This document shows, in pieces, positions 1,040 to 52,391 of a stretch of DNA of 64,000 nucleotides; position 1 is the first letter of the stretch, and each line of letters starts with the position of its first letter. Where the stretch lies: positions 1-64,000 of the forward strand of contig CAISWQ010000103.1 in NCBI GenBank assembly GCA_903889245.1, read 5' to 3'. The notes beneath the pieces were generated by a model. That model did not search any database. It was not told the DNA's origin and saw only the letters and a program-made list of their open reading frames with translations. Both the position numbers and the translations under genes were made by a program. This DNA is from an uncultured Lentisphaerota bacterium (GTDB lineage: Bacteria; Verrucomicrobiota; Kiritimatiellia; CAIQIC01).

Positions 1040-2242
1040 ATGCATAAGCAGCGAGTGGTGATCACAGGCGTGGGCGTCCTGGCGGCCAACGGAATTGGCA
1101 AGGAAGCCTACTGGAAGTCGCTGGTGGAAAACCGCAGCGGCATCGGGCCGATCACCCTGTTCGACGCGCGCGATCTGCCCAGCCGGATTGCGGGCGAGGT
1201 CAAGGATTTTGACCCGCACGACTACCTTGATCCGCAGATGAAGCCGCGGCGGATGGGTCGCTTTACCCAACTCGGCTTGGTGGCGGCGAAACTGGCGCTG
1301 GACGACGCGGGACTCAAGCCGCACGGCATGGATCACATCCAGAATCTCCTCGTGGTGATGGGCGTGAGTACCAGCGCGATGGATCTGGTCGGCAAGCGGC
1401 CCGCGCCTTATACAGCAGTCAGTGCGGTGCCCCATGCGTTGACGAGCGCCATTGGCTACCTGTTCCACCGCGAACCGGCCTTGGTAACGCTGTCGGATGG
1501 TTGCGCTTCGAGCCTCGACGCCATCGCCTATGCGACGCGCCTGATCCAGCAGGGCCAGCACGAGATCGCCATCGCGGGCGGCGGCGAGGGCGCCATTACG
1601 CGTTATGTCTGCGAGAGCATGCTGGCGTGCCGGAAATGCTCAATGCGTAACGACGAACCGCACAAGGCGAGCCGCCCGTTCGATCTGCACCGCGACTTCG
1701 GCGTCATGGCCGAGGGGGCGGGCATTGTGATCCTGGAAAGCGCCGACCATGCGCGGGCGCGGGGCGCACCTATCTACGGCGAGATCTTGAGCTACACAAC
1801 CTGCGCCGATCCGGCCGGCTCGCGCGAGGGCGGTGGGCTGGCCAACGCCATGCGGCAGGCGCTCGCCAACGCGGGTGTGCAACCAAGCGAGGTGGATCAT
1901 GTCAATGCTCATGGGCCGAGCGATATAGACATGGACATCACCGAGACCGACATGATCAAGGAAGCGTTGGGCGAGGCGGCCTATCGCGTGCCGGTCACCT
2001 CGATCAAGGGTGCGACGGGCTGCCCGATGGGGGTGGGGGGCGTATTGCAGTTGATCACCACCGCGTTGATGATCCGGCACGGACTCATCCCGCCAACGAC
2101 GAACTATGAGGTCCCCGATCCGCGCTGCGATCTGGACTATGTGCCGCTCCGGCCGCGGCATGTTCAGATTCGCAAAGCGCTGATCAACACGCATGGCTTC
2201 GGACGCGGCAACGGGGCGATGGTGGTGGGGCGCGTGGCTTGA
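1040..2242 (+). CDS. Beta-ketoacyl synthase (FabF-like) with a Cys-His-Cys active site
   Basis: A 400-residue thiolase-fold ketosynthase. The start MHKQRVVITGVGVLAANG is chosen because it opens directly on the family's first beta strand; longer in-frame readings only add non-family sequence. The nucleophile is Cys155 in DGCASSLDAI and the first histidine is His291 in VNAHGPSD. The second histidine of the usual KSxxGHxxGA motif is replaced: the stretch reads IKGATGCPMGVGG, with Lys323 kept and Cys328 in the histidine position. FabF enzymes need both histidines for decarboxylating condensation, so this one may be altered in chemistry or act on unusual substrates. It ends 3 bp before the sensor kinase gene and is probably translated with it. 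A role in a specialised lipid or polyketide-like pathway is inferred from the neighbouring methyltransferase, FadL porin and flavoprotein. Confidence 0.88.
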   Translation: MHKQRVVITGVGVLAANGIGKEAYWKSLVENRSGIGPITLFDARDLPSRIAGEVKDFDPHDYLDPQMKPRRMGRFTQLGLVAAKLALDDAGLKPHGMDHIQNLLVVMGVSTSAMDLVGKRPAPYTAVSAVPHALTSAIGYLFHREPALVTLSDGCASSLDAIAYATRLIQQGQHEIAIAGGGEGAITRYVCESMLACRKCSMRNDEPHKASRPFDLHRDFGVMAEGAGIVILESADHARARGAPIYGEILSYTTCADPAGSREGGGLANAMRQALANAGVQPSEVDHVNAHGPSDIDMDITETDMIKEALGEAAYRVPVTSIKGATGCPMGVGGVLQLITTALMIRHGLIPPTTNYEVPDPRCDLDYVPLRPRHVQIRKALINTHGFGRGNGAMVVGRVA

Positions 2243-2245
2243 CAC

Positions 2246-4735
2246 ATGGAAGCCTCCTTCTTTAACGTGCATTCCGTCACGCTGCTGGTCAACACGGCCA
2301 TCGGTGTGGTGCTTTTCCTGACCAATCCGCGACGTGTCCAGAACCAATGTTTCCTCTTGTTCACCTTGAGTCTCACTGTCTGGGGGCTGCTGGTGATGGG
2401 CATCATGCGCAGCCAGCACCCGGAGACAGCGGAGTTGTTGATCCGTTGGGCCTCGGCGGTTTCGACGCTGCTGCCGGTGTTCTTTCACTGGTTGTTCCTC
2501 TCCGTGAGGCAGCCGGAGAAACAACTGGCTGGCGTGATCCGCGCCTCCGCCGTCACGTTGAGCTGCTGCGTCGTGATCATTCTGCTGACCGGCACGCGCT
2601 TTTTCCTGCGCGACGTGCAGATCCCGACCCAGGCCGGCTTATTACCGGAAGCCAACTACGGGCCGGGGTTCCTGTTGTTTGCGCTCTATTTCCCGGTGGC
2701 CTTCGGCATCATCATCTACAACTTCTACCGCGTTTATCGCGTGGCGACGGGCGTCCAGCGGCTGGAACTGCAATTCATCCTGATCGGCTCGATCACGATG
2801 ATCCCGCTGGGGTTGGCGATCAACCTGTTGGGGCCGCTGCTCACCGGCAGCACGCAGTCGCAACAGTTCGGGCCGTTGAGCGTGGTGGCGATGAACATCA
2901 TCATCGCCTACGGCATAGCGACGCGGCGCATCCTGGGTGTTGCGGCGTTCGTCCGGCGCCTGATTGCCTACAGTCTGCTGTGCGGGTGCTTGGGACTGCT
3001 CTACATCGGTCTCTGGTTTGTCTTGGAGCGGACATTGGCCGCCTTGCAAGCGCCTTCGGCCATGCTGCCGCACCTCGTAGCGGCGTTGCTGGTCGCCTTC
3101 TCGATGGCGCCGGCGAGTGGCTATATGCAGCGCTTTGCCAACCGCCTGTTCTTGAGCCTGGCCCCGCCGGACACCAGCCACGCCATACAGCGGGCCAGCG
3201 CGCTGCTGCAAACCGTCACCACCCTCGATGGCCTGCTGCAACGGTTTGCGCAACTCATCACAGAGTCGCTGGCCACGGAGCGCATTTTATTCCTGAACGC
3301 GGAGGCCGCCGGCTTCCGGCAACTCTTTCCGCAGAACGGCAGCGCAGGCCTGCTGGTGGAACGGGACTCACCGCTGGTGCGGGAGGTGACGCAGAACGCC
3401 GAGCCCCTGGTGCTCGACCTGCTCCAGCGCCCGCGCCAGAACGACCAACTGGATGCGGCGGCACAGCAGATGCGCACCTTGGGCGTGGCGGTGGTGGTGG
3501 GCATCCGCGGGAAGGGCGGGTTGGAGGCGCTGTTGTTGCTTGGCCCGCGCCTGTCCGGCCGCGTCTATAGCGCCATCGAGCAGGACGCCCTGCAATTGCT
3601 GGGCAACCAACTGGCCGTTGCGCTCGAAAATGCCCGCCTCTACACCCAGGTGCAGGACGGCAAAATCTACAATGACCTGCTGCTGGACCACCTCGTCAAT
3701 GGGGTCATCGCCGTCAATGCCGAGGGCCGCGTCAATGTCTTCAATCGCGAGGCGCAGCGCGTCACCGGCCTGTCGCCGGTGGCCGTGCTGGGCCAGCCGT
3801 TCCAGTGCCTGCCGCTGCCGCTGGCGCAGGTGCTGCGGGATATCTGGGATGGCAACCGGCGCGTGCTGGATCGCGAGCTCCAGTTGCGCGGCGGGCACGT
3901 GGAACTGACCCTGCGCGCCGGTGGGGCGGTGGTCACCGGTCACGCCGGCGCGCGGCTCGGCGCACTGCTGGTCTTCAGCGACATCACCGACATCAAGCGT
4001 TTGGAATTGCAGATCCGCCGCTCCGACCGGCTGGCCAGCGTCGGCACACTCTCGGCCGGCATGGCGCACGAGATCAAAAACCCGCTGGTCGCGCTTAAGA
4101 CCTTCGCGCAACTGCTGCCGGAACGCTACGAGGACGCGGACTTCCGCGACACCTTTTCCAAGCTGGCGCAGCAGGAGATCGAACGCATTGATGGCATCGT
4201 GAATCAACTGCTGGAATTCTCGCGGCCGGCCAAACCCCAGCTGGTGGAAACTTCGTTGCACACCGTGCTCCAACGCCCGCTCCGGCTGGTCTCGGAGGCG
4301 GCGCTGAAAAAGCAGGTGGTCATCGCCACACGCTTCGAGGCGGGCAACGACGCCCTGCTGGCCGATATTCACCAGTTGCAGCAGGTGTTCCTGAACTTCC
4401 TGCTCAATGCGCTCGACGCCCTGCGGGCCCCCGGCCGCATTTCGCTGACGACGAGCATCGTCGAGGGCCGCTTCAGTCCCGATGCGGCGGCGGCGGGCGC
4501 GCCGCAGCCCTACCTGCGTCTCGACATTGCCGATACGGGCTGTGGCATTCCGCCAGAGCAGTTGCCGCGCATTTTTGATCCGTTTTTCACCACCAAGAGC
4601 GGGGGCACCGGGCTGGGCCTCTCGGTGTCCTATGGCATCGTCCGTGAACACGGCGGCATGGTGGAGGTCGAGAGCCGGGTGGGGGTGGGCACCCAGTTCC
4701 ACATTTTCTTTCCGCTGCGGGTAAAAACATGCTAA
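2246..4735 (+). CDS. Membrane sensor histidine kinase with GAF and PAS domains
   Basis: An 829-residue sensor kinase. Residues 1 to about 275 hold many hydrophobic helices, resembling the 7TM histidine-kinase sensor module. A GAF domain follows (about 320-470), then a PAS domain (about 475-595; [17 protein letters not shown]). The dimerisation domain has the phospho-acceptor His608 in [10 protein letters not shown], and the ATPase domain shows [27 protein letters not shown] and a closing [11 protein letters not shown]. No receiver or DNA-binding domain is fused. The gene begins 3 bp after the ketosynthase and ends 16 bp before a second kinase, so the three form one operon. Its HisKA core is almost identical in wording to that of the next gene, which points to a local duplication or a shared response regulator partner. 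Confidence 0.93.
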
Positions 4736-4751
4736 GGGAAGCGCGCCGCCT

Positions 4752-6806
4752 ATGACCGCAAAAACCATCTGCTTCTTGTTCAGCCTCGATAGCGCGTGGG
4801 CCGACCGTATCGCACGCAACCTGCCGGATCATCTGACCGTGCGCCCGTTCAGCGAGCGGCTGCAACTGGAAAGCGCGCTGGAGCGTCAAAGCCTGCAAGT
4901 GGTGCTGATGGATCTGCGTGGCGACCATGCGCTGGACGAGGTGCGGCATGTGCATACCCGCTGGCCGACGGCCATCGTCATCGCCTTCGGGACTCCCGGC
5001 TCCGATCCTTTCCTGGCCGCCGAGGAGCTGAACCTGTTCGCTGTCGAGGACCTGAACGTGGACCGCCACCGCCTGCTGGCGCTGGTCCACCGCGCGCTGG
5101 CCTATCTCCAGACGCAGCAGGAGAGCCGCGTGCTGCGCATGGAACTGGAGCGCGTCACGCGCGAATTCGCCGCCGCCAAGGCTGGCACCGTGATGGCCGA
5201 GGCGCCCGTCGGCACGGCCGCCACCCGGCGATTCCCGTTTTCGCTCCACAAGTTCGACGATGTGAACGCGATGCTCGAAAGTCTCGCCGAGGGCGTCGCC
5301 GATATCCTGATGGTCAGCCGCGTCGGCATCTTCTGCCGCTCGCGCGACAGCGAGACCTATTCGCTGCGTGCCGGCCTGCGCTGCCTCGACGATGCGAAGC
5401 ACCTGACCTACGAGCCGGGCGATGAACTGGTCCGCTGGCTCGAACGCAACGCGCACATGGTCTATCGCCCGCACCTGGACCACATCCACGCCGCCGCCGC
5501 CCGCCTGTTGCTGTTGCAGACGCTCGATGTGCTCGGCGCGGAGGTCATCATCCCGTTGCATTCGAGCGACCGGTTGCTGGGCTGGATGTTCATCGGCCAC
5601 CGCGCCACCGGCCTGCCCTTCGAGCGGGCGCAACTCGAGCGCCTCATGCTGATTGCCGAGCAGGTCTCCACCACGCTGGAGAACGCCATCCTGTATGAGG
5701 AGTTGACCGTCCAGAAGACGCTGGCCGAGACGCTGCTCCAATCGCTGCCCGTTGGCATTGTCGCCGTGGATGCCGAGGGCGTGGTGCGCTGGTACAGCGC
5801 CGCCGCCGCCGGCATCCTCGGCCTGCCCGCCGGCCAGGCGATGCAAAAGCCGATCGAGAACCTTGGCAGCCGGCTGGCCGATGTCGTGCGCCGCAGCCTG
5901 CAGGGCGAACCGCCGCCTTCGCCGCCGTTGATGTGGACCGATGCCCACAGCAAAAAGACCATCGCCGTCATCGCGTTGCGCCTGACCAACGCGCAGCTCT
6001 GCCTCGGCTCCGTCGCGCTGTTGCAGGATATGACCGCGCAGGTGGCGCTGAAGGCCAAGGAGGAGCAGCTCGAACGCACTGTCTTCTGGGCCGAGCTCGC
6101 CGCCAGCCTCTCGCACGAAATCAGCAACCCGCTGGTCACCATCCAGACCTTTGCCCAGTTGCTGCCGGAACGTTATCAGGAGGAGGAGTTCCGTTGCGAC
6201 TTCAGCCGCATCGTCACCGCCGAGGTCCAGCGCCTCAACAGCATCATCACCCAGATCAACGAATTCGCCCACCCACCGAACCTGACCATGACCACGGTCG
6301 CCTTGGGGGCGTTGTTGCAGACCAGCACCGAGAAGGTGCTGCCGGAGGCGGTGCGCGGCAACGTGAAGGTGGAGATCCAGGTGGATCCGCAGGCGCCCGC
6401 GTTGCGCGGCGACGCGCGCGCGCTGGCCGAGGCCCTGGGCTATCTGCTGACCAACTCCCGCGAAGCCTTGGAGGGGCGCGCCGACGGCCGGATCACCGTG
6501 ACCGCCCGGCCCGCGCGCGGCCTCAACGGCGAGCCGCAGGTGGAAATCACCGTGGCCGATAACGGCCCCGGCATCCCGCCCGCCCTGCGCGACCGCGTCT
6601 TCTCGCCGTTTTGCACCACCAAGCCGCGCGGTCTCGGTCTCGGCCTTTCCATCGTCAAGCGCACGGTCACCGATCACGGCGGCCGCGTGCACCTGGAGAC
6701 CGGCAGTACCGGCACGGGCATCGCCCTGCTGCTGCCCGCGGCGACGGCCGACCGTCTGGCGCAGCCCGCCCGCGAGGGCAGCCTGGGTCCGGCCAAGTCC
6801 GCCTGA
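4752..6806 (+). CDS. Cytoplasmic sensor histidine kinase with pseudo-receiver, GAF and PAS domains
   Basis: A 684-residue kinase without membrane helices. Residues 1-125 resemble a receiver fold (VVLMDLRGD carries an aspartate at the strand-3 position), but the conserved lysine of strand 5 is not visible, so it looks like a pseudo-receiver. Then come a GAF domain (about 165-320; ends in QVSTTLENAILYEEL), a PAS domain (about 325-440; LPVGIVAVDAEGVVRWY), HisKA with His455 in SLSHEISNPLV, and an ATPase domain (VADNGPGIPPALRD, PRGLGLGLSIVK). It lies 16 bp after the membrane kinase and probably works with it. Two copies of the phased palindrome follow the stop codon. Confidence 0.91.
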   Translation: MTAKTICFLFSLDSAWADRIARNLPDHLTVRPFSERLQLESALERQSLQVVLMDLRGDHALDEVRHVHTRWPTAIVIAFGTPGSDPFLAAEELNLFAVEDLNVDRHRLLALVHRALAYLQTQQESRVLRMELERVTREFAAAKAGTVMAEAPVGTAATRRFPFSLHKFDDVNAMLESLAEGVADILMVSRVGIFCRSRDSETYSLRAGLRCLDDAKHLTYEPGDELVRWLERNAHMVYRPHLDHIHAAAARLLLLQTLDVLGAEVIIPLHSSDRLLGWMFIGHRATGLPFERAQLERLMLIAEQVSTTLENAILYEELTVQKTLAETLLQSLPVGIVAVDAEGVVRWYSAAAAGILGLPAGQAMQKPIENLGSRLADVVRRSLQGEPPPSPPLMWTDAHSKKTIAVIALRLTNAQLCLGSVALLQDMTAQVALKAKEEQLERTVFWAELAASLSHEISNPLVTIQTFAQLLPERYQEEEFRCDFSRIVTAEVQRLNSIITQINEFAHPPNLTMTTVALGALLQTSTEKVLPEAVRGNVKVEIQVDPQAPALRGDARALAEALGYLLTNSREALEGRADGRITVTARPARGLNGEPQVEITVADNGPGIPPALRDRVFSPFCTTKPRGLGLGLSIVKRTVTDHGGRVHLETGSTGTGIALLLPAATADRLAQPAREGSLGPAKSA

Positions 6807-31014: not shown

Positions 31015-31493
31015 CGCGATTCCTTTCCTGCCGCCCACCGGCGGCGGCGGAAACGTGCCGCATTTCCTGGCATCCCGCAAGCCGCGATTTCATTTTTCCA
31101 AGTGTGGTTAGATGGGCAAAGCTCCACAAAATCATGCTTACAAAATCATGAGGAGGCAGAGGGGGCATGTTTCGCGCAAAGGGCGCGAAGCCCGCCAAGG
31201 TGGCAGACCTTGGCGCGAACGATCCTGCAAGGGTTGGCCACAAAAGAACACAAAGATCACAAAGGACGGCAGAGCATGGCCGGCGAGCAACTGACCACTG
31301 ACTACCGACAACTGACGAATGACCACTGACATCTTCTGTCTGGACAAGCCCCATCCCCGCCGCTAGCCTCCGCAGCGTTGCAGGGAAACAGGGATGAACA
31401 CGAACCCAGCCAGACCGCCAACCTGGAGCGCGCCACAGCCCCGCCGCCCTTGTTATACAAGTTGTCGTTACCAGACCGCACAGCAGCCGCATA
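31015..31493. other. Intergenic repeats upstream of cassette site A
   Basis: I see no gene here. At 31126-31151 two direct CAAAATCATG units are separated by CTTA; an almost identical element is at 47717-47742. CCAAGG-tggcaga-CCTTGG (31195-31213) is a hairpin. ACTGACCACTGACTACC-type direct repeats lie near 31289-31330. A segment similar to the start of flank E1 (GACAAGCCCC, CCCGCCGC) begins near 31343, but about 130 bp of unrelated sequence separates it from the rest. Confidence 0.7.
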
Positions 31494-31654
31494 AAGACAA
31501 CTTCGCCGTTAAGCAGGAAATCGCCCCCTCTTCTAATTGCTTTCAAGCCAAGTTGTTTCCCGCTTGTCTTGTCACCTCGGCCTTCTTATCGTGCCGGTGC
31601 GCCAAGAAACACATGGCTGCATAAAGACAACTTTTAGTTCGTTCAATAATACTG
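31494..31654 (+). repeat. Left flank E1, copy A (attI-like, promoter-bearing)
   Basis: This 161-bp sequence recurs in inverted orientation at 50415-50576 with roughly 90% identity by eye; its last 85-90 bp are nearly identical in the two copies. It contains repeated CATAAAGACAACTT units (one just before and one near the end), AAGTTGT inverted counterparts, and GTTCGTTCAA close to the cassette boundary. The similarity stops within a few bases of the inferred crossover at 31654/31655. Confidence 0.9.
31624..31652 (+). promoter_or_regulatory. Promoter in E1 reading into cassette A
   Basis: AAGACA (31624-31629) and TAATAC (31647-31652) are 17 bp apart. The same bases occur in E1 copy B. Transcription would start just inside the cassette, about 10 bp before the ATG at 31670. 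Confidence 0.6.
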
Positions 31655-33383
31655 TTCGGTGCGAGGGACATGAATATGACGACCGCACATGAAGAATCCA
31701 ACCCCTTGGCACTCGTCACGGCCTTGGCGCAAGCAAAGGGGGCAAAGAGGCGATTGAGAGTCGCCCTCTCCGACTTCCGGCTCTTTGACAACGTTGAGAC
31801 CGATGACGTAGAGATGTCGCGAGAGCGACTCCTGAAACCGGGGCCGCCGTATGATTTCATCGTAGCCGACCTGCCGCTGGGGTTGCGTGCTGGCTTGGCG
31901 GCATCGCCTTGCGCCACGCTGGTTCCCAAAAGCCGTCAGAACTGGATGGACATATGTGCCGCAGCGGCTCGCCTTGCACCCAATGGCCTTGCAGTGGCTG
32001 TGCTTGAGCCGGCCTTCTGGTCAAGAGACTGGGGCCAGTTCACCGCTGCGCTTGGTGAACTCGCCGTGTATCACTCGGCAGTTGTCAGATTTCCCAGCTT
32101 GACCTACCCAGGGACCACCATTCCGCCGACGCTGGGGGTCTTCACACGCGAGAAAAGGGATTTTCTTTTCGTTGCCGATGCCACACCGAAGTCGTCGACA
32201 AAGGTCCTCGCGGAATCAATCGTCGCTGGTTCCTTTGGTGCAGCCATCGAAGACGGGCTGCCCGTCTCGCACGCTTCTTTCCGTGGAATTGACCAATTGG
32301 TCGTCGAGAACGAGATTCGCGCCCTGGAAACGCACTATAAAGGATACAAGCAGCGGCAACTAGTTCCTGAGTTAGCATCCCCTGAGAACGTGCACCTGTG
32401 CCGGAACGGTCAGTCCCACATCCCACGAGACAACGCGATCTACATCCCTCGGATTGGCAACTCGCCTGTCATCACACGACTGGAGAACGCCACACTCAAA
32501 CACCATAACTATATCCAGGTGGTGCTCACCTCGTCCGACGTAATCCCGGAGTACCTCGCCTTGTACTTCCGCTCGCATCTGGGACAACTGACACTACGCA
32601 TGTTGAGTCAAGGCGCCTCCATTCCCCATCTCCCGAAGGTTGCCATGGACGGGATTGTTGTGCCTGTTCCAGATCGCCCGGATCAGGAAATGATCATCCT
32701 AGCTCATGCACGACTGATCGACCTAGACAAGGCACTGCAGGACTTCAGGGCAGAACTTTCCCTGAATCCCCGGAGCGCAACATCGTTGGTAGACCACGCA
32801 AACGCAATGCTCCAGCAAGTGCACCGCCTCTCGGCGGGCGATGAGATACTGGCCCTCGTTCGGTCAGGAGAGTCAAGGACTCTTGAATTCAAACAGACCC
32901 TCTGTCTCGACGTGAAGAAGGGAACCAAGGAGGCGTACATAGAGAAGATGGTCTTGAAGACAATTGCCGCATTCCTCAACTCCCAGGGAGGCACGCTGCT
33001 TGTTGGCGTCGCCGATGACGGCAACATCACGGGATTACGCTCAGAGATGGATTCCTTCTTCAAAGCCAGCCGAGACGAGTTTCTGAAGCACTTCAAGAAC
33101 ATCCTCAAGCGAAGCATCGGAGAGACTTTCTACCCGCTGATTGACTATGACACGGTTGATGTCAACGGCGTGCAGGTGCTCCGTGTCGACTGCCGAGAGT
33201 CGGACAAGGAGTGCTTTGTGGACTCGACTGAGTTCTATGTGCGGACGAACCCAGCGACTGACCAACTTAACGGAGAGAAGATGGTCGAGTACATTCGACG
33301 GCGATTCAGGCCATGAACACCGAACAACGGCGTGGTGCGCTACCTCGCGCCCGCGGCGGGCGCTCGGAGGCACACGCCGGGCG
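31655..33383 (+). mobile_element. Integron-like gene cassette A
   Basis: A single gene with a 15-bp leader, ending in an attC-like hairpin that starts 1 bp after the stop codon. The cassette begins TTCGGTG; with the preceding G this is GTTCGGTG, the exact reverse complement of the hairpin's outer core CACCGAAC. It is visibly less G+C-rich than the surrounding genes. No integrase gene lies nearby. Confidence 0.8.
31670..33316 (+). CDS. Degenerate N6-methylase/HsdS-like/AlbA_2 (Schlafen) fusion protein
   Basis: A 548-residue protein, the sole cargo of cassette A. Residues about 40-180 follow the layout of a type I methylase core (PYDFIVADLPLGLRAG, LAPNGLAVAVLEPAFW, YPGTTIPPTLGVFTR), but the catalytic NPPF motif reads ADLPLG (66-71), so it is probably inactive. 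Residues about 225-395 resemble a specificity-subunit half (VPEYLALYFRSHLGQLTL, SQGASIPHLPKVAMDGIVVP). Residues about 400-548 form an AlbA_2 domain (SGESRTLEFKQTL, IAAFLNSQGGTLLVGVADDG), found in Schlafen-like and defence proteins. GAGGG precedes the ATG; MNM offers a second start 6 bp later. An anti-phage role is inferred from domains and mobility only. Confidence 0.78.
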   Translation: MNMTTAHEESNPLALVTALAQAKGAKRRLRVALSDFRLFDNVETDDVEMSRERLLKPGPPYDFIVADLPLGLRAGLAASPCATLVPKSRQNWMDICAAAARLAPNGLAVAVLEPAFWSRDWGQFTAALGELAVYHSAVVRFPSLTYPGTTIPPTLGVFTREKRDFLFVADATPKSSTKVLAESIVAGSFGAAIEDGLPVSHASFRGIDQLVVENEIRALETHYKGYKQRQLVPELASPENVHLCRNGQSHIPRDNAIYIPRIGNSPVITRLENATLKHHNYIQVVLTSSDVIPEYLALYFRSHLGQLTLRMLSQGASIPHLPKVAMDGIVVPVPDRPDQEMIILAHARLIDLDKALQDFRAELSLNPRSATSLVDHANAMLQQVHRLSAGDEILALVRSGESRTLEFKQTLCLDVKKGTKEAYIEKMVLKTIAAFLNSQGGTLLVGVADDGNITGLRSEMDSFFKASRDEFLKHFKNILKRSIGETFYPLIDYDTVDVNGVQVLRVDCRESDKECFVDSTEFYVRTNPATDQLNGEKMVEYIRRRFRP

Positions 33384-33389
33384 TTCACT
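33318..33389 (+). other. attC-like recombination hairpin of cassette A
   Basis: Outer core CACCGAAC (33318-33325), 2-base spacer, arm CGGCGTG (33328-33334), bulged G at 33335 and TG pair with CA, CACGCCG (33373-33379), 3-base spacer and GTTCACT (33383-33389). Inside, CCTC/GAGG and GCGCCC/GGGCGC close a second stem. The two-box layout with an extrahelical base on one arm is that of integron attC sites. The core is GAAC/GTTC rather than the canonical RYYYAAC/GTTRRRY. Confidence 0.78.
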
Positions 33390-33487
33390 TAGCGCATTCC
33401 CGAATCGTGGATGAGTGAGTGACACGGGTTCTGATGCAGCCGCGTTCGTGAGAACGCGGCCCAGCCAAACGCAAGCAACACTCCCGG
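33384..33487 (+). repeat. Right flank E2, copy A
   Basis: About 104 bp starting TTCACTTAGCGCATTC and ending CACTCCCGG. It recurs inverted at 48021-48124 with about 87% identity by eye. It contains the hairpin CCGCGTTC-gtga-GAACGCGG (33440-33459). An AAGCATTGG-variant palindrome follows directly. Confidence 0.88.
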
Positions 33488-33488
33488 T

Positions 33489-33569
33489 TTTTCCAAGCAT
33501 TGGAAAATCTCGCGGAAAAGTTTCCAAACCTTGGAAAAAAGAGCGCGACTTTTTCCAAGGCTTGGAAAA
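33489..33569. repeat. Phased palindrome array, three sites (33498, 33529, 33560)
   Basis: Exact 31-bp spacing. The first site has the less common CCAAGCATTGG core, whose inverse is also the site nearest to E2 copy B (47956). Confidence 0.93.
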
Positions 33570-33581
33570 TACTGCGCCATC

Positions 33582-37451: not shown

Positions 37452-39023
37452 ATGGTGCAACAAAATTCACGCCGCGATTTTCTGAAGCTGGCCGGCCTGG
37501 GCGTGGCCGGCGCCGCCCTGACTTTTCCAAGCCTTGGAAAAAACGAGGGTGGCGGTTTCCAAGCCTTGGAAAAGTCGCAGTTCAACCTCCTCGTTCTCCA
37601 CACCGATGAGCACAACTTCCGCACGCTCGGCTGCTACCGCGCGCTGCTGCCAAAGGAGCAGGGCTGCATCTGGGGCGAGGGCATCGCCGTCGAGACGCCG
37701 CATCTCGATTCGATCGCGAAGAGTGGCGCGCTGTGCGACCGCTGCTACACCTCGTCGCCGGTCTGCACGCCGAGCCGCGCGGCGTTCGTCTCCGGCCGCT
37801 TCCCGCAGAACACGGGCGCGCCGAGCAACGATCTGCCGATGAACGACGACATCATCACGTTCGGCGAGGCGTTGCGGCGCCACGGCTACGTGACCGGCTA
37901 CGCGGGTAAGTGGCACCTCGATGGCGACGCGAAGCCGGGCTGGTCGCCGAGGCGGCAGTTCGGCTTCACCGAGAACAGGTACATGTTCAACCGCGGCCAC
38001 TGGAAGCAACTCGAGGACACGCCGACCGGCCCGGCGGTCAAGGGCGGCAACAGCTACGCGATCAAGGGCGCGGACGCGAAGTCGTTCACGACGGATTTTC
38101 TCGCCGACAAGGTGATCGCCTTCATCCAGGCGCACAAGGGCCGGCCGTTCTGCTTCATGGTCAGCTTCCCCGACCCGCACGGTCCGAACAGCGTGCGCGC
38201 GCCTTACGACACGCTGTTCGAGCATCTGAAGTTCCAGCAGCCACGCTCGGCCTACGCGCCGGCGGCGGGCCTGCCGAGCTGCGCGGCGCCGTTCGCCAAG
38301 CCGCAGCTGGAAAACATGAGCCGCTACTTCGGCATGGTGAAGTGCATTGATGACAACGTCGGCAAGATTCTGGGCGCGCTCCGCGCGGCGGGCGTCGCGG
38401 AGAAGACAATCGTCGTGTTCACCTCCGATCACGGCGATATGTGCGGCGAGCACGGCCGCGTCAACAAGGGCATCCCGCTGGAAGGCTCGGCGCGGATTCC
38501 GTTCCTGATCGCCGCGCCCGGCCTGATCAAGCCCGGCACGGTGATCCACGAGGCGCTCGCGAACGTGGACTTCAAGCCGACGATCCTCGGGTTGCTGGGA
38601 CTGCCGGCCGATGCCAAGGACGAGGGGCGCGATGCTTCGGCGCTGCTGCGCGGCGGCCAGGCACCGGCGGGCTGGAAGAACGTCGCCTTCTCGCGCAACT
38701 CGGCGGGTAACTGGCTGATGGCGGTCAGCACCCGCTACAAGTTCATCGTCTCCAACGACAGCGATCCGTGCCTGTTCGATCTCGAGGCCGACCCGTTTGA
38801 AGTGCGCAATATCTTCGCGTTGCCGGCATCTCGGCCGGTCGTGCGCGAGCTGGCGCAGGCGCTGTTGGATTACGCGAAGCGCTGCAAGGAAGAGCACGCC
38901 GAACAGCCGTCCGTCAAAGCCGACCTGCTCTGGTGCGCGGAAGGCAGCGGCGCTTACAAGGCGCCGAACCGGGAGCAGAAAAAAGGCAAGCGCCGTAAAC
39001 TCGTGGAGGAGGATGACAAATGA
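37452..39023 (+). CDS. Sulfatase S1, Tat-exported, with palindrome-coded linker
   Basis: A 523-residue Cys-type sulfatase. The Tat signal NSRRDFLKLAGLGVAGAALT is followed by about 20 residues encoded by two phased palindromes (FPSLGKNEGG, FQALEKSQ), then the catalytic domain from NLLVLHTDEHNFRTLGCY. The formylglycine-precursor motif is Cys105 in VCTPSRAAF; YAGKWHLDGD and FTSDHGDMCGEHG supply other active-site residues. Sulfatases of this type hydrolyse sulfate esters, here presumably on polysaccharides outside the cytoplasm. The Lys/Arg-rich end (EQKKGKRRKLVEEDDK) resembles the tails of S2 and the partial sulfatase at the right edge. Its stop overlaps the next ATG by 4 bp. Confidence 0.93.
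   Translation: MVQQNSRRDFLKLAGLGVAGAALTFPSLGKNEGGGFQALEKSQFNLLVLHTDEHNFRTLGCYRALLPKEQGCIWGEGIAVETPHLDSIAKSGALCDRCYTSSPVCTPSRAAFVSGRFPQNTGAPSNDLPMNDDIITFGEALRRHGYVTGYAGKWHLDGDAKPGWSPRRQFGFTENRYMFNRGHWKQLEDTPTGPAVKGGNSYAIKGADAKSFTTDFLADKVIAFIQAHKGRPFCFMVSFPDPHGPNSVRAPYDTLFEHLKFQQPRSAYAPAAGLPSCAAPFAKPQLENMSRYFGMVKCIDDNVGKILGALRAAGVAEKTIVVFTSDHGDMCGEHGRVNKGIPLEGSARIPFLIAAPGLIKPGTVIHEALANVDFKPTILGLLGLPADAKDEGRDASALLRGGQAPAGWKNVAFSRNSAGNWLMAVSTRYKFIVSNDSDPCLFDLEADPFEVRNIFALPASRPVVRELAQALLDYAKRCKEEHAEQPSVKADLLWCAEGSGAYKAPNREQKKGKRRKLVEEDDK
37523..37573. repeat. Phased palindrome pair inside sulfatase S1 (37532, 37564)
   Basis: Two full copies, 32 bp apart, translated in two different frames relative to the repeat (FPSLGK and FQALEK). 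They lie exactly between the Tat signal and the first catalytic strand. Confidence 0.95.
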
Positions 39024-40953: not shown

Positions 40954-41036
40954 AGTTTTGGAGTGCGCGGACGTGTCCGCGCTTTGGGCGCCGCGACGCG
41001 TCGCGGAAAGCGGCGTCGAGCCGCCGCAGTCCAAAA

Positions 41037-41180
41037 AGTTCCAAGGATTGGAAAAGTGGACCGCCGGTTTTTCCAAGCCTTGGAAAAAGTCGGGCCGAAA
41101 AGTTCCAAGCCTTGGAAAAGTGCGCGTGAATTTTTCCAAGGCTCGGAAAAACGGACGGAAAAATTTCCAAGCTTGGATGT
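41037..41180. repeat. Phased palindrome array, five sites (41046 to 41171)
   Basis: Centres at 41046, 41078, 41110, 41141 and 41171/2, the longest unbroken run in the window, with steps of 32, 32, 31 and about 30 bp. It lies between S2 and S3. Confidence 0.96.
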
Positions 41181-41200
41181 TCCCGGCAAAAATCTGTGTC

Positions 41201-44951: not shown

Positions 44952-45002
44952 GTCATCAAGGCTTGGAAACGGGCAGCATGAGTTTTTCCAAGCCCTGGAA
45001 AC
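44952..45002. repeat. Phased palindrome pair (44961, 44993)
   Basis: Spacing 32 bp. The left arm of the first site is decayed (TCAAG). Confidence 0.85.
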
Positions 45003-45074
45003 CGCCGGCAGGAAGCGCGCAATAAGATGGCGGTTTCCGCCGTTGTGCGTTCGGTTTTGCGAAAGGAAATACAC

Positions 45075-47603: not shown

Positions 47604-47914
47604 AATTTTGCCCGCCGCTCCGCTGCTGCGGCTGGGCTACAGACCCGTGGATGGCTTGCGATTGCAGTGCGGGAGCAGCGCTGTTGGTAGCTCGCGCGTC
47701 GGGGCGCTCCGCTTTTGCAAAATCATGTTTACAAAATCATGAAGCGCGTCTGGCTGGCGAGGCAGGCGGGATGACTCCATGAACCGGTGACCAGCCACGC
47801 AAGTACCCACCATGGCGCTCGAGGGCCCAGCACTCCAACACTCCAGCACTCCGCGTGGCCTCACGGCGCGCAGGGCCAACTGACCGATACAGCATGACCC
47901 CGATTTCTGGCTCA

Positions 47915-47965
47915 ATTTCCAAAGCCTGGAAAAACCGGGGGTTTCACTTTCCAATGCTTGGAAAA
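47915..47965. repeat. Phased palindrome pair (47924, 47956)
   Basis: Spacing 32 bp. The right-hand site, CCAATGCTTGG, is the inverse of the variant next to E2 copy A. Confidence 0.88.
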
Positions 47966-47970
47966 CGGCT

Positions 47971-48018
47971 CGGCAAGCCTCGCCCTCCAGCGTTCGTTTT
48001 GGAGGGCGAGGCTTGCCG
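47971..48018. repeat. Perfect 19-bp-arm hairpin element
   Basis: CGGCAAGCCTCGCCCTCCA pairs perfectly with its inverse across a 10-bp loop. It separates the palindromes from E2 copy B, whereas in copy A they abut, so it may be a later insertion. Confidence 0.85.
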
Positions 48019-48020
48019 GG

Positions 48021-48124
48021 CCGGGAGTGTAGCTTGCGGTTGGGTGGGCCGCGCTCTCACGAACGCGGCTACATCAGAACCCGCGTCAACTCACTCACCC
48101 ACGACGCACGAATGCGCTAGTGAA
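48021..48124 (-). repeat. Right flank E2, copy B (inverted)
   Basis: The inverse of 33384-33487. Both copies share TTCACT, AGCGCATTC, GTGAGTGAG, GGGTTCTGATG, AGCCGCGTTCGTGAGA and ACACTCCCGG in the same order. Confidence 0.88.
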
Positions 48125-48178
48125 CGTCAGCGGTGTGGGGCGACGCGAAGCGGCGTACCCACCACCGCTTGGTTCGCC
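48119..48178 (-). other. attC-like recombination hairpin of cassette B
   Basis: On the minus strand: GGCGAAC, 2-base spacer, arm AGCGGTG, bulged G, then TG pairing CA, arm CACCGCT, 3-base spacer, GTTCACT. Spacers, arm length and bulge position equal those of cassette A, while the arm sequence differs but remains complementary. The outer core GGCGAAC inverts to GTTCGCC, and the cassette begins TTCGCC. Confidence 0.77.
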
Positions 48179-48232
48179 TTTCTGTCGTTCTCCTCGTCCC
48201 TCCGGCGTGTGTCAAGGCTCTGTCAGCGGCAT

Positions 48233-49000
48233 TCAATCATGGTATGGCTTTGCCGTGGCCGCGAACGATGCGACGGCCCGCAGAATGGCTCTCGTTGTCA
48301 CGCACCGAGTCTGTTTCTCTGTGGTACGCACGACTGAACCGATCAACTCTCCCGCCGCATCCAGCACCGGGCCGCCACTAAAACCGGAGTCAATGGGCTG
48401 GTTCAAAACGAAGAAGTCATCCTCAACCGCCGACACTCGGGGCGAGTCGGTGAACTGTGGCAGGACTGTGGATGGGAAACCCCACACGCGCACTTGGATT
48501 TCCGGACGAAGACGTGCTCGGTGCATGCCGAAGGACAACAGATTGAGCGTACGCAGATCAGCGTCGGCAAGGGTCATGATGGCAACATCCGCTGCGGGGT
48601 CCACAAGCAGTCGCTCTGGTACGAGCGACAACGTTCCGACGCGGATTCGCGTCTTTGTTTGGGTCAGCGAAGCTGTCTCTCCCAACGTGTAACTCTTTTC
48701 CTTCCCATCCTTGATGATGGTGCCCTTTGTCGTAGACCCCAGAACCACATGGGCTGCCGTAACAAGGTAGTTTGAGCCATTGTCTTGCAGGATGAAGCCG
48801 GATCCCCCGGACATAACGCAGACATCCTTCGTCTCGTCCTTACGCAAGGACTTTGCGATTTGCAGAGTATAGGCCGTTTCCGCGTAGACCCTTGCCACAG
48901 GCCGGGCCGTGCTTTCGGTCGCTTCGCTCAGACCGTTGCTTCCCTGTGCAAGGGCGAAGACTGGTGAAAGAAGGAAAAACGCCGCCGTTGAGAGTCTCAT
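48233..49000 (-). CDS. Trypsin-like serine protease (cassette B, third gene)
   Basis: A 255-residue protein starting MRLSTAAFFLLSPVFALAQG, a Sec signal. The triad is His84 in YLVTAAHVVLG, Asp138 in DPAADVAIM and Ser208 in DSGFSGGPVLD. It is a stand-alone protease domain of the DegP/chymotrypsin fold with no PDZ domain. A GTG at 49012 overlaps the upstream stop as GTGA and would add four residues; the ATG is preferred for the signal peptide and for GAGGAG upstream. It may process the lipoprotein encoded immediately upstream; this is inference. Confidence 0.87.
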   Translation of the reverse strand: MRLSTAAFFLLSPVFALAQGSNGLSEATESTARPVARVYAETAYTLQIAKSLRKDETKDVCVMSGGSGFILQDNGSNYLVTAAHVVLGSTTKGTIIKDGKEKSYTLGETASLTQTKTRIRVGTLSLVPERLLVDPAADVAIMTLADADLRTLNLLSFGMHRARLRPEIQVRVWGFPSTVLPQFTDSPRVSAVEDDFFVLNQPIDSGFSGGPVLDAAGELIGSVVRTTEKQTRCVTTRAILRAVASFAATAKPYHD

Positions 49001-49008
49001 GTTGCTCC

Positions 49009-49740
49009 TCACATTCCGCCTGTGGCGGTGGCTACAACCGTACTGAGTGACTTCGCGATCCCGAATGTGTAAGAGAGAATAGCTACAACGTCTTCCCGCG
49101 TGAGCATCTTTTCATGGATAGCGTAGATCGTGATTCCTGTGCCACTCAGGATCGCCGCCGTGCAGATGATTGCGCACAAGGTTAGTGGTTCGCAGACCGC
49201 CTTCCCGTCCATGGACAAATTGACCTGCTTCAGATAGTCGTCCGCGATGTATTTCTCCAAGGTGTCCCCAGCGCTTGACCAGAACGCAAAGCGGTAGACG
49301 CCAATCTCCTTGCCTTTGGGGCACAGGGCATTGGCGCGATTCGCCATCGCCCCCGCCTCGGCGAACCGTTTCCCCATGTTGGCGCTCTGGGCTGCAAGCA
49401 ACAATGCCGCAGCCTGTTTGGCCGGCTCGCGCGTAGCACTCACAGCAGCCTCGTATGCTGCCTCGGCCTTGTCCCACCGTTGTTCGAGAAACCACGAAGA
49501 ACCGTAGTCACACCATTGCTCGTAGGTCATCTGCTGCGTGACCATCAGCGTCTGGTACAAGTGCTGTACCTCCTGTGGTTGTTTGCCGTTGTTGCACGAT
49601 TCATAGAATACGACGGGGGGGGATGTCGGCGTTTGTTTGCCATCTTGGCTTCTTTGCCCCGCTTCCTTCCGGCCACATCCGGCGAGCGCCACGGCAACAA
49701 CCATGACAAGAACGCCTTGAGCCGCAGTCCTGTAGTGCAT
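49009..49740 (-). CDS. Lipoprotein with helical repeats and hydrophobic C-terminus (cassette B, second gene)
   Basis: A 243-residue protein with a lipobox at Cys22 (VAVALAGCGRK). Residues about 70-145 look like TPR-type helix pairs (WFLEQRWDKAEAAYEAAVSA, AKQAAALLLAAQSANMGKRF). The C-terminal 60 residues are hydrophobic (LTLCAIICTAAILSG, AILSYTFGIAKSLSTVVATA) and could insert in a membrane. I know no family for the whole chain. Its position next to a protease and a membrane protein suggests a three-part envelope system, possibly with protease-triggered membrane insertion; that is a hypothesis. Confidence 0.75.
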   Translation of the reverse strand: MHYRTAAQGVLVMVVAVALAGCGRKEAGQRSQDGKQTPTSPPVVFYESCNNGKQPQEVQHLYQTLMVTQQMTYEQWCDYGSSWFLEQRWDKAEAAYEAAVSATREPAKQAAALLLAAQSANMGKRFAEAGAMANRANALCPKGKEIGVYRFAFWSSAGDTLEKYIADDYLKQVNLSMDGKAVCEPLTLCAIICTAAILSGTGITIYAIHEKMLTREDVVAILSYTFGIAKSLSTVVATATGGM

Positions 49741-49790
49741 TGAGTATCTCCTTGCCTATGCTCCGCATTGGACACTTGGTGATCAGCATA

Positions 49791-50387
49791 TCACTGCCGC
49801 GGCTTCGTGTCATCTCGGAGCATCACGATAAAATACGAGCCGTTTAGCAGCACCAGAAGTCCCGTTGCGACTAGTGCGGACAACGGAAACGTCCTTGTTG
49901 CAAGGGCCGAAGGTGATTCTAAGATGCGGGAAGCCCGGAACGACGCGACCGCCAAGACTACAAGCGTCGCAAGAAGTAGTCCGTTTTCAGTCAAATACAG
50001 ACGTGCGTGGTGCTCAACGAGTTTCCTATTCCTGTACAGGAAGACTGTGATCGAGGCTAATCCTGCGGCCCAGCAAACCGCCGACATGAATACGTCCTTG
50101 GCAAAGAGGGCTGACAGAATGAACAAGGTCCATGCCACAACCATCAGTGCCAGACTGTTTCGCGTTATCCTCTCGCTGTCGTCGTGGCGATCATCAATTA
50201 CGTCATCTACGAAGTACTTGATCATGAACATAGCGAGGGACACGGAGTAGAGAAGCGCAACGACATTGAGTGGCCGGGGCTGATCGCCGAACGAACTGTC
50301 GATGATACTGAAGATGGAGTTGCAAAGGGCAGAAAGTGCAATAGCTGCAAAGAAACTGGCCACCACGAATCTCCGGCTTGGCGTCAT
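49791..50387 (-). CDS. Multi-pass membrane protein of unknown function (cassette B, first gene)
   Basis: A 198-residue protein with about six hydrophobic helices (FVVASFFAAIALSALCNSIF, VALLYSVSLAMFMIKYFV, LALMVVAWTLFILSALFA, MSAVCWAAGLASITVFLY, LLLATLVVLAVASF, LSALVATGLLVLLNGSYFIV). An acidic loop (DDVIDDRHDDSERITR) follows helix 2. AAAAGGAG precedes the ATG, and the E1 promoter reads into it. I do not recognise the family. As first gene of the cassette it is the one best placed for expression. Confidence 0.75.
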   Translation of the reverse strand: MTPSRRFVVASFFAAIALSALCNSIFSIIDSSFGDQPRPLNVVALLYSVSLAMFMIKYFVDDVIDDRHDDSERITRNSLALMVVAWTLFILSALFAKDVFMSAVCWAAGLASITVFLYRNRKLVEHHARLYLTENGLLLATLVVLAVASFRASRILESPSALATRTFPLSALVATGLLVLLNGSYFIVMLRDDTKPRQ

Positions 50388-50414
50388 AGCATTCTCCTTT
50401 TGGTCGTTGGCGAA

Positions 50415-50576
50415 TAGTATTATTGAACGAACTAAAAGTTGTCTTTATGCAGCCATGTATTTCTTGGCGCACCGGCACGATAAGAAGGCCGCGGTGACAA
50501 GGCAAGCGGGAAAACAACTTGGCTTGAAAGCAAATGGACGGGTGGATGATTTTCTGCTTAACGGCGATGTTGTCTT
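50415..50576 (-). repeat. Left flank E1, copy B (inverted)
   Basis: The inverse of 31494-31654, with the same AAGACA/TAATAC promoter directed leftward into cassette B. Similarity may extend a little further right (GACAAGCCCC, CCCGCCGC at 50577-50602), as it does in broken form near 31343. Confidence 0.88.
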
Positions 50577-50684
50577 TCTGCGGCGGGGCTGGGGCTTGTC
50601 GAGTCTAAGTCCGCGCGCCGGCCGTGCAATATCGGGAAGAACAGGCCGTTAGAGATTTGGGTCGCTTAAACAGGAGCAGGGATC

Positions 50685-52391
50685 ATGAAGAAGCTTTTTG
50701 GCGTCGCGGTCATCATCATGGTGTTGGGCCTTCCCGCGTGGGCGCGGCCCCCGAATTTCCTCTTCATCCTCACCGATGACCAGGGCTGGGCCGACGCGCA
50801 CTTCGCGGGCCATCCCTATGCGCAGACGCCGAACCTCGACCGCTTCGCCAGCCAGTGTACGCGCTTCAAGCAGTTCTACGTGGCGGCGACCGTCTGCTCG
50901 CCGAGCCGCTGCGCGTTCATGACCTCGCACTATCCGGCGCGTCACGAGATCCACGGGCACTTCTCGACGCACGAGCAGAACGCCGGCCGCTCGATGCCCG
51001 ACTGGCTGGACCCGAAGACGCCGACCGTCGCCTCGCTGCTCAAGCAGGCCGGTTACGCGACGGCGCACATCGGCAAGTGGCACCTCGGCAACGGCGCGGA
51101 CGCCCCGACGCCGGACGCCTACGGCTTCGACTTCGTCCGCCACACCACCGGTAACAAGGGCTACTGGGACGAGGGCGGCAAGGGCGACCCCTACTTCCGC
51201 GCCAAGTCCACCGCGCTGTTCGTGGATGAGACGATCAAGTTCATCAAGGAGAACAAGGACCGCCCGTTCTACGCGAACCTCTGGACGCTGCTGCCGCATG
51301 CGCCGCTCAAGCCGACGCCGGAGCAGCTCAAGGTCTATGAGCACCTCGAGCCGCGCGCCGATGATCCCGCGTTCGGGCCGTGGATGCAGAAATATCTCGG
51401 CGCCGCGCAGGACCTCAAGAGCCAGATGCGAACCTTCTGCGCGTCGCTGACCGACCTCGATACGCAGGTCGGCCGGCTGCTGAAGGCGCTTGACGAGCTC
51501 GGCCTCGCGGAGAACACGGTCATCTTTTACTCCAGCGACAACGGCGCGGAGGACTACCGCATCGGCAACGCCGCGAACGCCGGCGTCGGCAACACCGGCC
51601 CGCTGCGTGCACGCAAACGCAGCATGTACGAAGGCGGCATCCGCACCTTCGGCCTGCTGCGCTGGACCGGCCACGTCGCCGCCGGCCGCGTGGACGAAAC
51701 CAGCGTCGTCGGGGCGGTGGACTGGCTGCCGACTGTCTGCAAGCTCGCGGGCGTCGCCGTGCCGGAGAGCGTGAAGCCCGATGGCGAGGATGTCAGCGAC
51801 ATCTGGGCTGGCCAGTCGCGTCCGCGCGCTCGGCCACTGTGCTGGGAGTGGCTGTTCCGCGTCTGGGGCGATGACTACACGCCGCCGCACCTCGCCATCC
51901 GCGACGGCGACTGGAAGCTCTACGTCAACCACGATGGCTCGAAGGCGGAGCTCTACAGCATCCCGCAGGACATCTCCGAGCAGCACAACCTGGCCGCGGA
52001 GAAGGCCGATGTCGTGAAGGACCTCTCCGCCAAGGCCATCGCGTGGAGCAAGACGCTGCCGCCGAGCAAGGCGCGCGAGCATGTCGCCGCGACCAACGAG
52101 CCGCAGGATACGCCGCGCAAACCGGCCCGGTCCAACACGCAGGCGGCCAACAAAGCGGCGGCCGGCAAGCCGCCGCTCGACCGCGTCGCGATCTTCAAGC
52201 AGAAGGACACCAACCACGATGGCAAGCTCTCGCTGGAGGAATACCTCAAAAACTTCCCCGACGAAGCCGAGGGCCGCCGCCGCTTCCCGACCTTCGACGC
52301 GAACCACGACGGCTTCTTGAGCGAGGAAGAATTCGTGACGATGGGCAGTCCGAAGAAGCGGGTCGCGCCGGCTCATCCGGATAATAAATGA
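50685..52391 (+). CDS. Sulfatase S6 with EF-hand tail
   Basis: A 568-residue protein starting MKKLFGVAVIIMVLGLPAWA (Sec signal), with AGGAGCAGG upstream. It has NFLFILTDDQGWADAHFAGH, Cys71 in VCSPSRCAFMTSHYPAR, HIGKWHLGNGADAPTPDAYG and FYSSDNGAEDYRIGN. The linker is followed by two calcium-binding loops (DTNHDGKLSLEE and DANHDGFLSEEE). Its start lies about 100 bp to the right of flank E1 copy B, so cassette site B was inserted directly upstream of it. Confidence 0.94.
   Translation: MKKLFGVAVIIMVLGLPAWARPPNFLFILTDDQGWADAHFAGHPYAQTPNLDRFASQCTRFKQFYVAATVCSPSRCAFMTSHYPARHEIHGHFSTHEQNAGRSMPDWLDPKTPTVASLLKQAGYATAHIGKWHLGNGADAPTPDAYGFDFVRHTTGNKGYWDEGGKGDPYFRAKSTALFVDETIKFIKENKDRPFYANLWTLLPHAPLKPTPEQLKVYEHLEPRADDPAFGPWMQKYLGAAQDLKSQMRTFCASLTDLDTQVGRLLKALDELGLAENTVIFYSSDNGAEDYRIGNAANAGVGNTGPLRARKRSMYEGGIRTFGLLRWTGHVAAGRVDETSVVGAVDWLPTVCKLAGVAVPESVKPDGEDVSDIWAGQSRPRARPLCWEWLFRVWGDDYTPPHLAIRDGDWKLYVNHDGSKAELYSIPQDISEQHNLAAEKADVVKDLSAKAIAWSKTLPPSKAREHVAATNEPQDTPRKPARSNTQAANKAAAGKPPLDRVAIFKQKDTNHDGKLSLEEYLKNFPDEAEGRRRFPTFDANHDGFLSEEEFVTMGSPKKRVAPAHPDNK

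Follow-up and report, generated by a model that had tools for sequence, protein, structure and literature searches.

In descriptions of integrons, one attI site stands beside one integrase gene (intI), and the cassettes of the single array are expressed less the further along it they lie. According to the description of IntegronFinder 2.0, the integrase typically has a single attI nearby; the program does not detect attI sites other than those of class 1, and its CALIN calls need two attC sites by default (PMC9024848). CALINs have been proposed to be degraded integrons (PMC9024848), and CALINs that lie at several loci and can be mobilised in trans have already been described (PMC12444791). Here, we analysed a stretch of 64,000 nucleotides (the window) from an uncultured Lentisphaerota bacterium. 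The window is on contig C103 of a genome (G000) of 5.26 Mb in 125 contigs. The layout is unusual in that about ten copies of a candidate promoter plus attI (platforms) are scattered round one genome, most of them with a cassette of their own, and the sole intact intI is on another contig. The parts are integron parts, and it is their arrangement that is new; we found no description of dispersed attI/Pc platforms in the openly licensed literature. The features are listed in Table 1.

Table 1. Features of platforms A and B in the window and the integrase gene on contig C16 (positions are those of the window unless a contig is named; ^ marks the crossover).
Feature	Position	Strand	Support or remark
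attI platform A (E1): iterons, Pc-like promoter, attI core; crossover after G31654	31445..31654	+	homologous to the intI-proximal region of G000:C16 and 8 other copies
Iteron GCATAAAGACAACTT, inner copy	31489..31503	+	conserved in E1 alignment
Pc-like promoter, platform A: TTGTCT-17-TATCGT	31564..31592	+	position and spacing shared by nearly all platform copies
Iteron GCATAAAGACAACTT adjoining attI core	31619..31633	+	conserved in E1 alignment
attI core AGTTCGTTCAATAATACTG^TT, platform A	31636..31654	+	conserved across species and families
Gene cassette A	31655..33383	+	lies between attI G^TT and R' G^TT of its own attC; R'' is the inverse of the start
Cassette A ORF, 548 aa: type I specificity-subunit-like segment plus Schlafen AlbA_2	31670..33316	+	Pfam PF04326 6.5e-20; weak PADLOC Specificity_I matches
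attC of cassette A	33318..33389	+	model R1 41.5 bits; A is an R1 training sequence
E2 downstream of cassette A	33384..33497	+	common to B and C64
E2 downstream of cassette B	48008..48124	-	
attC of cassette B	48119..48178	-	model R1 42.1 bits; B is a training sequence; R'' GGCGAAC inverse of cassette start
Gene cassette B	48125..50414	-	bounded as cassette A
Cassette B ORF 3, 259 aa, trypsin-like peptidase domain	48233..49012	-	PF13365 7.9e-16
Cassette B ORF 2, 243 aa, without family match	49009..49740	-	
Cassette B ORF 1, 198 aa, without family match	49791..50387	-	
attI platform B (E1), crossover base A instead of G	50415..50584	-	91% identical to platform A; alignment
Pc-like promoter, platform B: TTGCCT-17-TATCGT	50477..50505	-	
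Sole intact integron integrase of the genome, 449 aa	C16:24189-25538 (L001 1501-2850)	-	TIGR02249 357-359 bits, cut-off 265

A first-pass annotation of the window had described two attC-like hairpins, A and B, and on direct reading its letters matched base for base. Hairpin A reads CACCGAAC-AA-CGGCGTG-(G)-TGC...GCA-CACGCCG-GGC-GTTCACT and hairpin B, on the other strand, reads GGCGAAC-CA-AGCGGTG-(G)-TGG...CCA-CACCGCT-GAC-GTTCACT, so that both have the claimed spacers of 2 and 3 nt, the bulged G and the GAAC and GTTC cores. The annotation also held that the outer core, when inverted, gives the first bases of each cassette, as expected of a circularised cassette. This is the case for A, where inverting the outer box (R'') CACCGAAC gives exactly the cassette start GTTCGGTG at 31654-31661. 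For B, TTCGCC is present at 50414-50409 and is the inverse of bases within R'' GGCGAAC; the preceding base is A, not G. When the bottom strands were folded, as had been proposed, A and B fell below their shuffles (z -3.6 and -3.5, respectively) and were stabler than the top strands. Both hairpins thus have the R''/R' cores, L''/L' stem, extrahelical base and bottom-strand fold of attC, and the extrahelical G in L'' agrees with the description in PMC2727003. Rfam gave no match within 30-52 kb of the window. From these features of their sequence, we identify both hairpins as attC sites of integron gene cassettes.

The protein of cassette A joins a specificity-subunit-like segment to Schlafen AlbA_2, and this suggests a defence function. 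All three ORFs of cassette B are in cassette orientation. Platforms A and B lie in the neighbourhood of a gene cluster. The region 37452-62000 of the window holds a long run of similar genes, of which the one tested (50685-52391) is a sulfatase, and the strong internal similarity suggests tandem paralogues. Palindromes are also present. A REP-like palindrome (GCAGCCGCGTTCGTGAGAACGCGGC) is found at 33420-33487 and 48021-48088, with more than 20 further partial copies in the genome, and one close to TTTTCCAAGCCTTGGAAAA has many copies in intergenic clusters (33486-33575, 37521-37573, 41035-41181, 44957-45008, and 47913-47965).

The two cassettes are set between blocks that are common to A and B in inverted relative orientation, E1 upstream and E2 downstream. 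E1 (~170-210 bp) has ten matches in the genome, and about nine of these, including A and B, are without an intact intI. The copy on C16 is directly upstream of intI and divergent from it; 224 nt separate its end from the intI ATG. The platform copies end in ...GTTCAATAA.ACTG^TT, where B has A in place of G. The ten copies resemble one another as far as ...GTTCGTTCAATAA.ACTG^TT (ACTA^TT in B) and diverge completely beyond it. Because the C16 copy adjoins intI, and because all copies are alike to the crossover and different thereafter, we identify E1 as an attI region, namely the predicted attI/Pc region of a real integron, which the first-pass annotation had not seen. The ACTA^TT of platform B (50415) is the sole change of the crossover base among the ten aligned E1 copies of this genome. 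A looser pattern search gave 12 attI cores in the genome. E2 is flanking DNA common to A, B, and C64 and does not belong to attC.

In nearly all of 30 copies from four species, a promoter-like pair of sigma-70-like hexamers (TTGNCA-17-TATCNT) faces the cassette and spans roughly -91 to -62 relative to the crossover. The hexamers of this pair are conserved and the 17-nt spacer is variable in sequence. A generic promoter scan of 31400-31700 with a stricter consensus found nothing, so the case for Pc rests on conservation, by which E1 carries a candidate cassette promoter.

About ten copies with diverged flanks, among them the recent and near-identical copies A, B, and C64, could also come from an independent MITE-like mobile repeat that was spread by a transposase and carried attI incidentally, the association with the hairpin being secondary. 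We consider this very improbable. The right end of E1 is exactly at the G^TT crossover, whereas the left ends are spread between about -212 and -100; terminal inverted repeats were not recognised in the E1 copies, and intI and the attI copy beside it are arranged as is normal for an integron. Movement of E1 by IntI via a second G^TT at the left end (GTTATAC) is not claimed, the left ends being too variable between copies. Single cassettes scattered in a genome might also have been inserted by IntI at unspecific genomic sites (attG), but the sites occupied here, with their candidate promoter, are 170-210 bp long and homologous to the attI region next to intI, and this makes such insertion more improbable still.

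The reading of A and B as attC sites of circularised cassettes is supported by many more loci. In a permutation test, attC-like hairpins downstream were searched for an outer box equal to the inverse of the first seven bases of the cassette (G plus six). Counting exact matches, R'' matched the local cassette start within 2.5 kb at 13 of 26 testable platforms in four congeneric genomes, as compared with a mean of 1.55 and a maximum of 6 over 2000 permutations of the cassette starts; the 26 platforms come from four related species and hence are not all independent. A strict hairpin scan, which imposed no cassette-start requirement, was also made at 30 attI-like sites and found 12 hairpins downstream on the cassette strand; the other strand gave 3 and shuffled sequence gave 0, in keeping with the earlier judgement that chance is unlikely. 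In eight of the 12, R'' agreed with the cassette start (7/7 or 6/7). This is a draft genome, which might favour an explanation by chance or assembly artefact, but these permutation and strand controls contradict it and the flanking genes of locus A have the same arrangement at its orthologue in a sister species (G003:C95). We give it next to no weight.

In 13 aligned attC sites, 10/10 stem pairs had two-sided changes and pairing was kept in 97% of pair cells, figures that are inflated because the 13 sequences were partly picked for pairing. Covariation is therefore a matter of consistency and not an independent test, and the cassette-start permutation test is cleaner. The loops were trimmed for this alignment because MAFFT misaligned the arms of full-length attC; to hold the register, C19 was shortened by one spacer base on both sides and C64 on a single side.

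The search for more such hairpins that the annotation had called for found them in this genome at C28, C64, C67, C19, C23, and C66, and scanning with a covariance model gave additional attC loci, some as small arrays. The scan scored 150 candidates per genome of ~1,260-4,830, so the attC counts are lower bounds. Two cassettes form a small array at G003:C52, and two more are found at G003:C13, behind another attI type. The attC loci at C23 (L173) and C66 (L174) have no preceding E1-type attI; their upstream cassette border resembles another attC, and this points to small arrays. E1 loci without a recognised hairpin, which the annotation had named as counter-evidence, do exist, since no convincing attC was found at C44 or C123 (C114 runs off the contig end). 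We read C44 and C123 as empty or decayed attI sites and do not count them against attC. The second attI type, AATATTTTTGAAGCCTAATATGATG^TT, occurs just before the first cassette at G002:C173 (L175) and G003:C13 (L177). The cassettes that follow it have attC matching their own start, and the G003 copy is beside an internally deleted intI.

We also compared platforms between sister species, using genomes that are all drafts. C67 and G002:C256 are orthologous, with flanking genes that are 87% and 81% identical and attI in both, and their cassettes are unrelated. At G003:C95, the orthologue of locus A, the alignment of the left flank reaches window position 31446 and that of the right flank starts at 33551; the attI core there is in position but degraded (GTTCAATAACACTG), and a different ORF of ~135 aa follows it. 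G002:C8 and G003:C18 have the same attI and cassette (77% over ~715 bp) in different flanks. Within the window's genome, A, B, and C64 have near-identical E1 (91-97%), a common E2, and three different cassettes, and so capture appears to follow platform copying. Locus B is absent from G003, where 194 bp separate its flanking genes. Two comparisons were made in search of a clean empty site (G002:C48 with C123, and locus B with G003); in both, the platform was missing in one species and the junctions were inexact. The comparisons of cassettes show that cassettes have turned over at platforms that are without intI today, at a date that the comparisons leave unfixed.

The closest solved relative of the C16 integrase by sequence is Vibrio cholerae IntI4 (2a3v, 2.2e-61), which aligns over the whole domain, and the R, K, HxxR, H, and Y motifs are aligned with those of IntI4. 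The integrase has an N-terminal extension of ~140 aa, for which neither Pfam nor NCBIfam gave a family match; integron integrases from this class of bacteria often have open frames of similar length. No remnant of intI was found within 2.5 kb to the left of A or B. At C19 and G002:C94, an intI with most of its middle deleted is beside attI, with the same spacing as in C16. The G003 assembly has no intact intI and only an internally deleted one, beside another attI type. No intact intI was found in the assemblies of G042 (97% complete) and G122 (59% complete), which have many attI cores and are from other families. The lack of an intact intI in the G003, G042, and G122 assemblies suggests that platforms can outlast the enzyme.

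Such observations also fit fossil integrons, where each platform captured its cassette with its own intI, which was later lost, so that attC and attI are real and nothing acts in trans now. The internally deleted genes, the missing intI in genomes with many attI cores, and the degraded attI at locus A in G003 are all in line with this, and the cassette differences between species could date from when each platform had its own intI. However, most copies have no trace of intI in the left flank, Pc and the attI core are conserved in more than 20 copies, and the attC arms are intact. An intact intI remains in both G000 and G002, and the different cassettes of A, B, and C64 seem to have been captured after their platforms were copied. 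Fossil integrons are thus a possibility to be taken seriously, but a doubtful one.

To see how widespread the platforms might be, we searched for the 22-nt attI core, allowing up to 3 mismatches. The core was found 12 times in G000, 6 in G002, 5 in G003, 5 in G004, 12 in G122, and 8 in G042, where G122 and G042 belong to other families of the class than the window's genome. The reversed core pattern gave three matches over the 346 genomes searched. In a named collection, the core is found in MAGs labelled Lentisphaerae, Verrucomicrobia, Kiritimatiellaeota, and Akkermansiaceae; two matches in Porticoccaceae look unrelated. A strict scan for attC at the G042 and G122 platforms gave one weak match only, so the attI core alone is claimed there.

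Together, these data make it rather probable that this is a distributed integron, with one integrase serving many platforms in trans. The C16 IntI most likely acts in trans by binding the folded bottom strand of attC and would recombine it at the G^TT of any platform, after which Pc would transcribe the captured cassette. The deleted intI genes beside attI at the C16 spacing indicate that platforms probably originated when the integron head (intI-attI) was copied and intI was then lost by deletion. As to the fuller proposal that one IntI maintains and exchanges cassettes among at least ten promoter-bearing attI platforms, and that this is a long-lived layout in several families of the class, we see the chances as evenly balanced. 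If the distributed integron is real, many cassettes are first in line for expression simultaneously, and the view of cassettes as stored or expressed changes to one of many promoter-bearing platforms served in trans. It would also explain lone attC loci, and current finders would miss such platforms. The 22-nt core common to families offers a direct means of finding and testing them.

As a comparison, sedentary chromosomal integrons have the same kinds of parts, including a TIGR02249-type IntI, a G^TT attI, a Pc-like promoter, attC with R''/L''/L'/R' and an extrahelical base, and complementarity to the cassette start. They differ in having one attI/Pc, whereas here there are about ten platforms, nine of them not beside an intact intI, with mostly one or two cassettes each. 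As in CALINs, cassettes with attC are found with no intI nearby, but each locus here keeps attI and a promoter-like sequence, and A and B have one attC each, which is below the default threshold of two for a CALIN. Insertion at attG, as cited in PMC12444791 and PMC12901181, likewise places cassettes at scattered genomic positions; attG as these papers cite it is neither attC nor attI, whereas the target here is a homologue of the intI-proximal attI. In Delta-attI-type cassettes of class 1 and 2 integrons, extra partial attI sites also recombine with IntI (PMC12901181). Those are attI pieces of 14-18 nt or somewhat longer that replace attC inside one array (PMC12901181), whereas the platforms described here are attI/Pc regions of 170-210 bp at separate loci.
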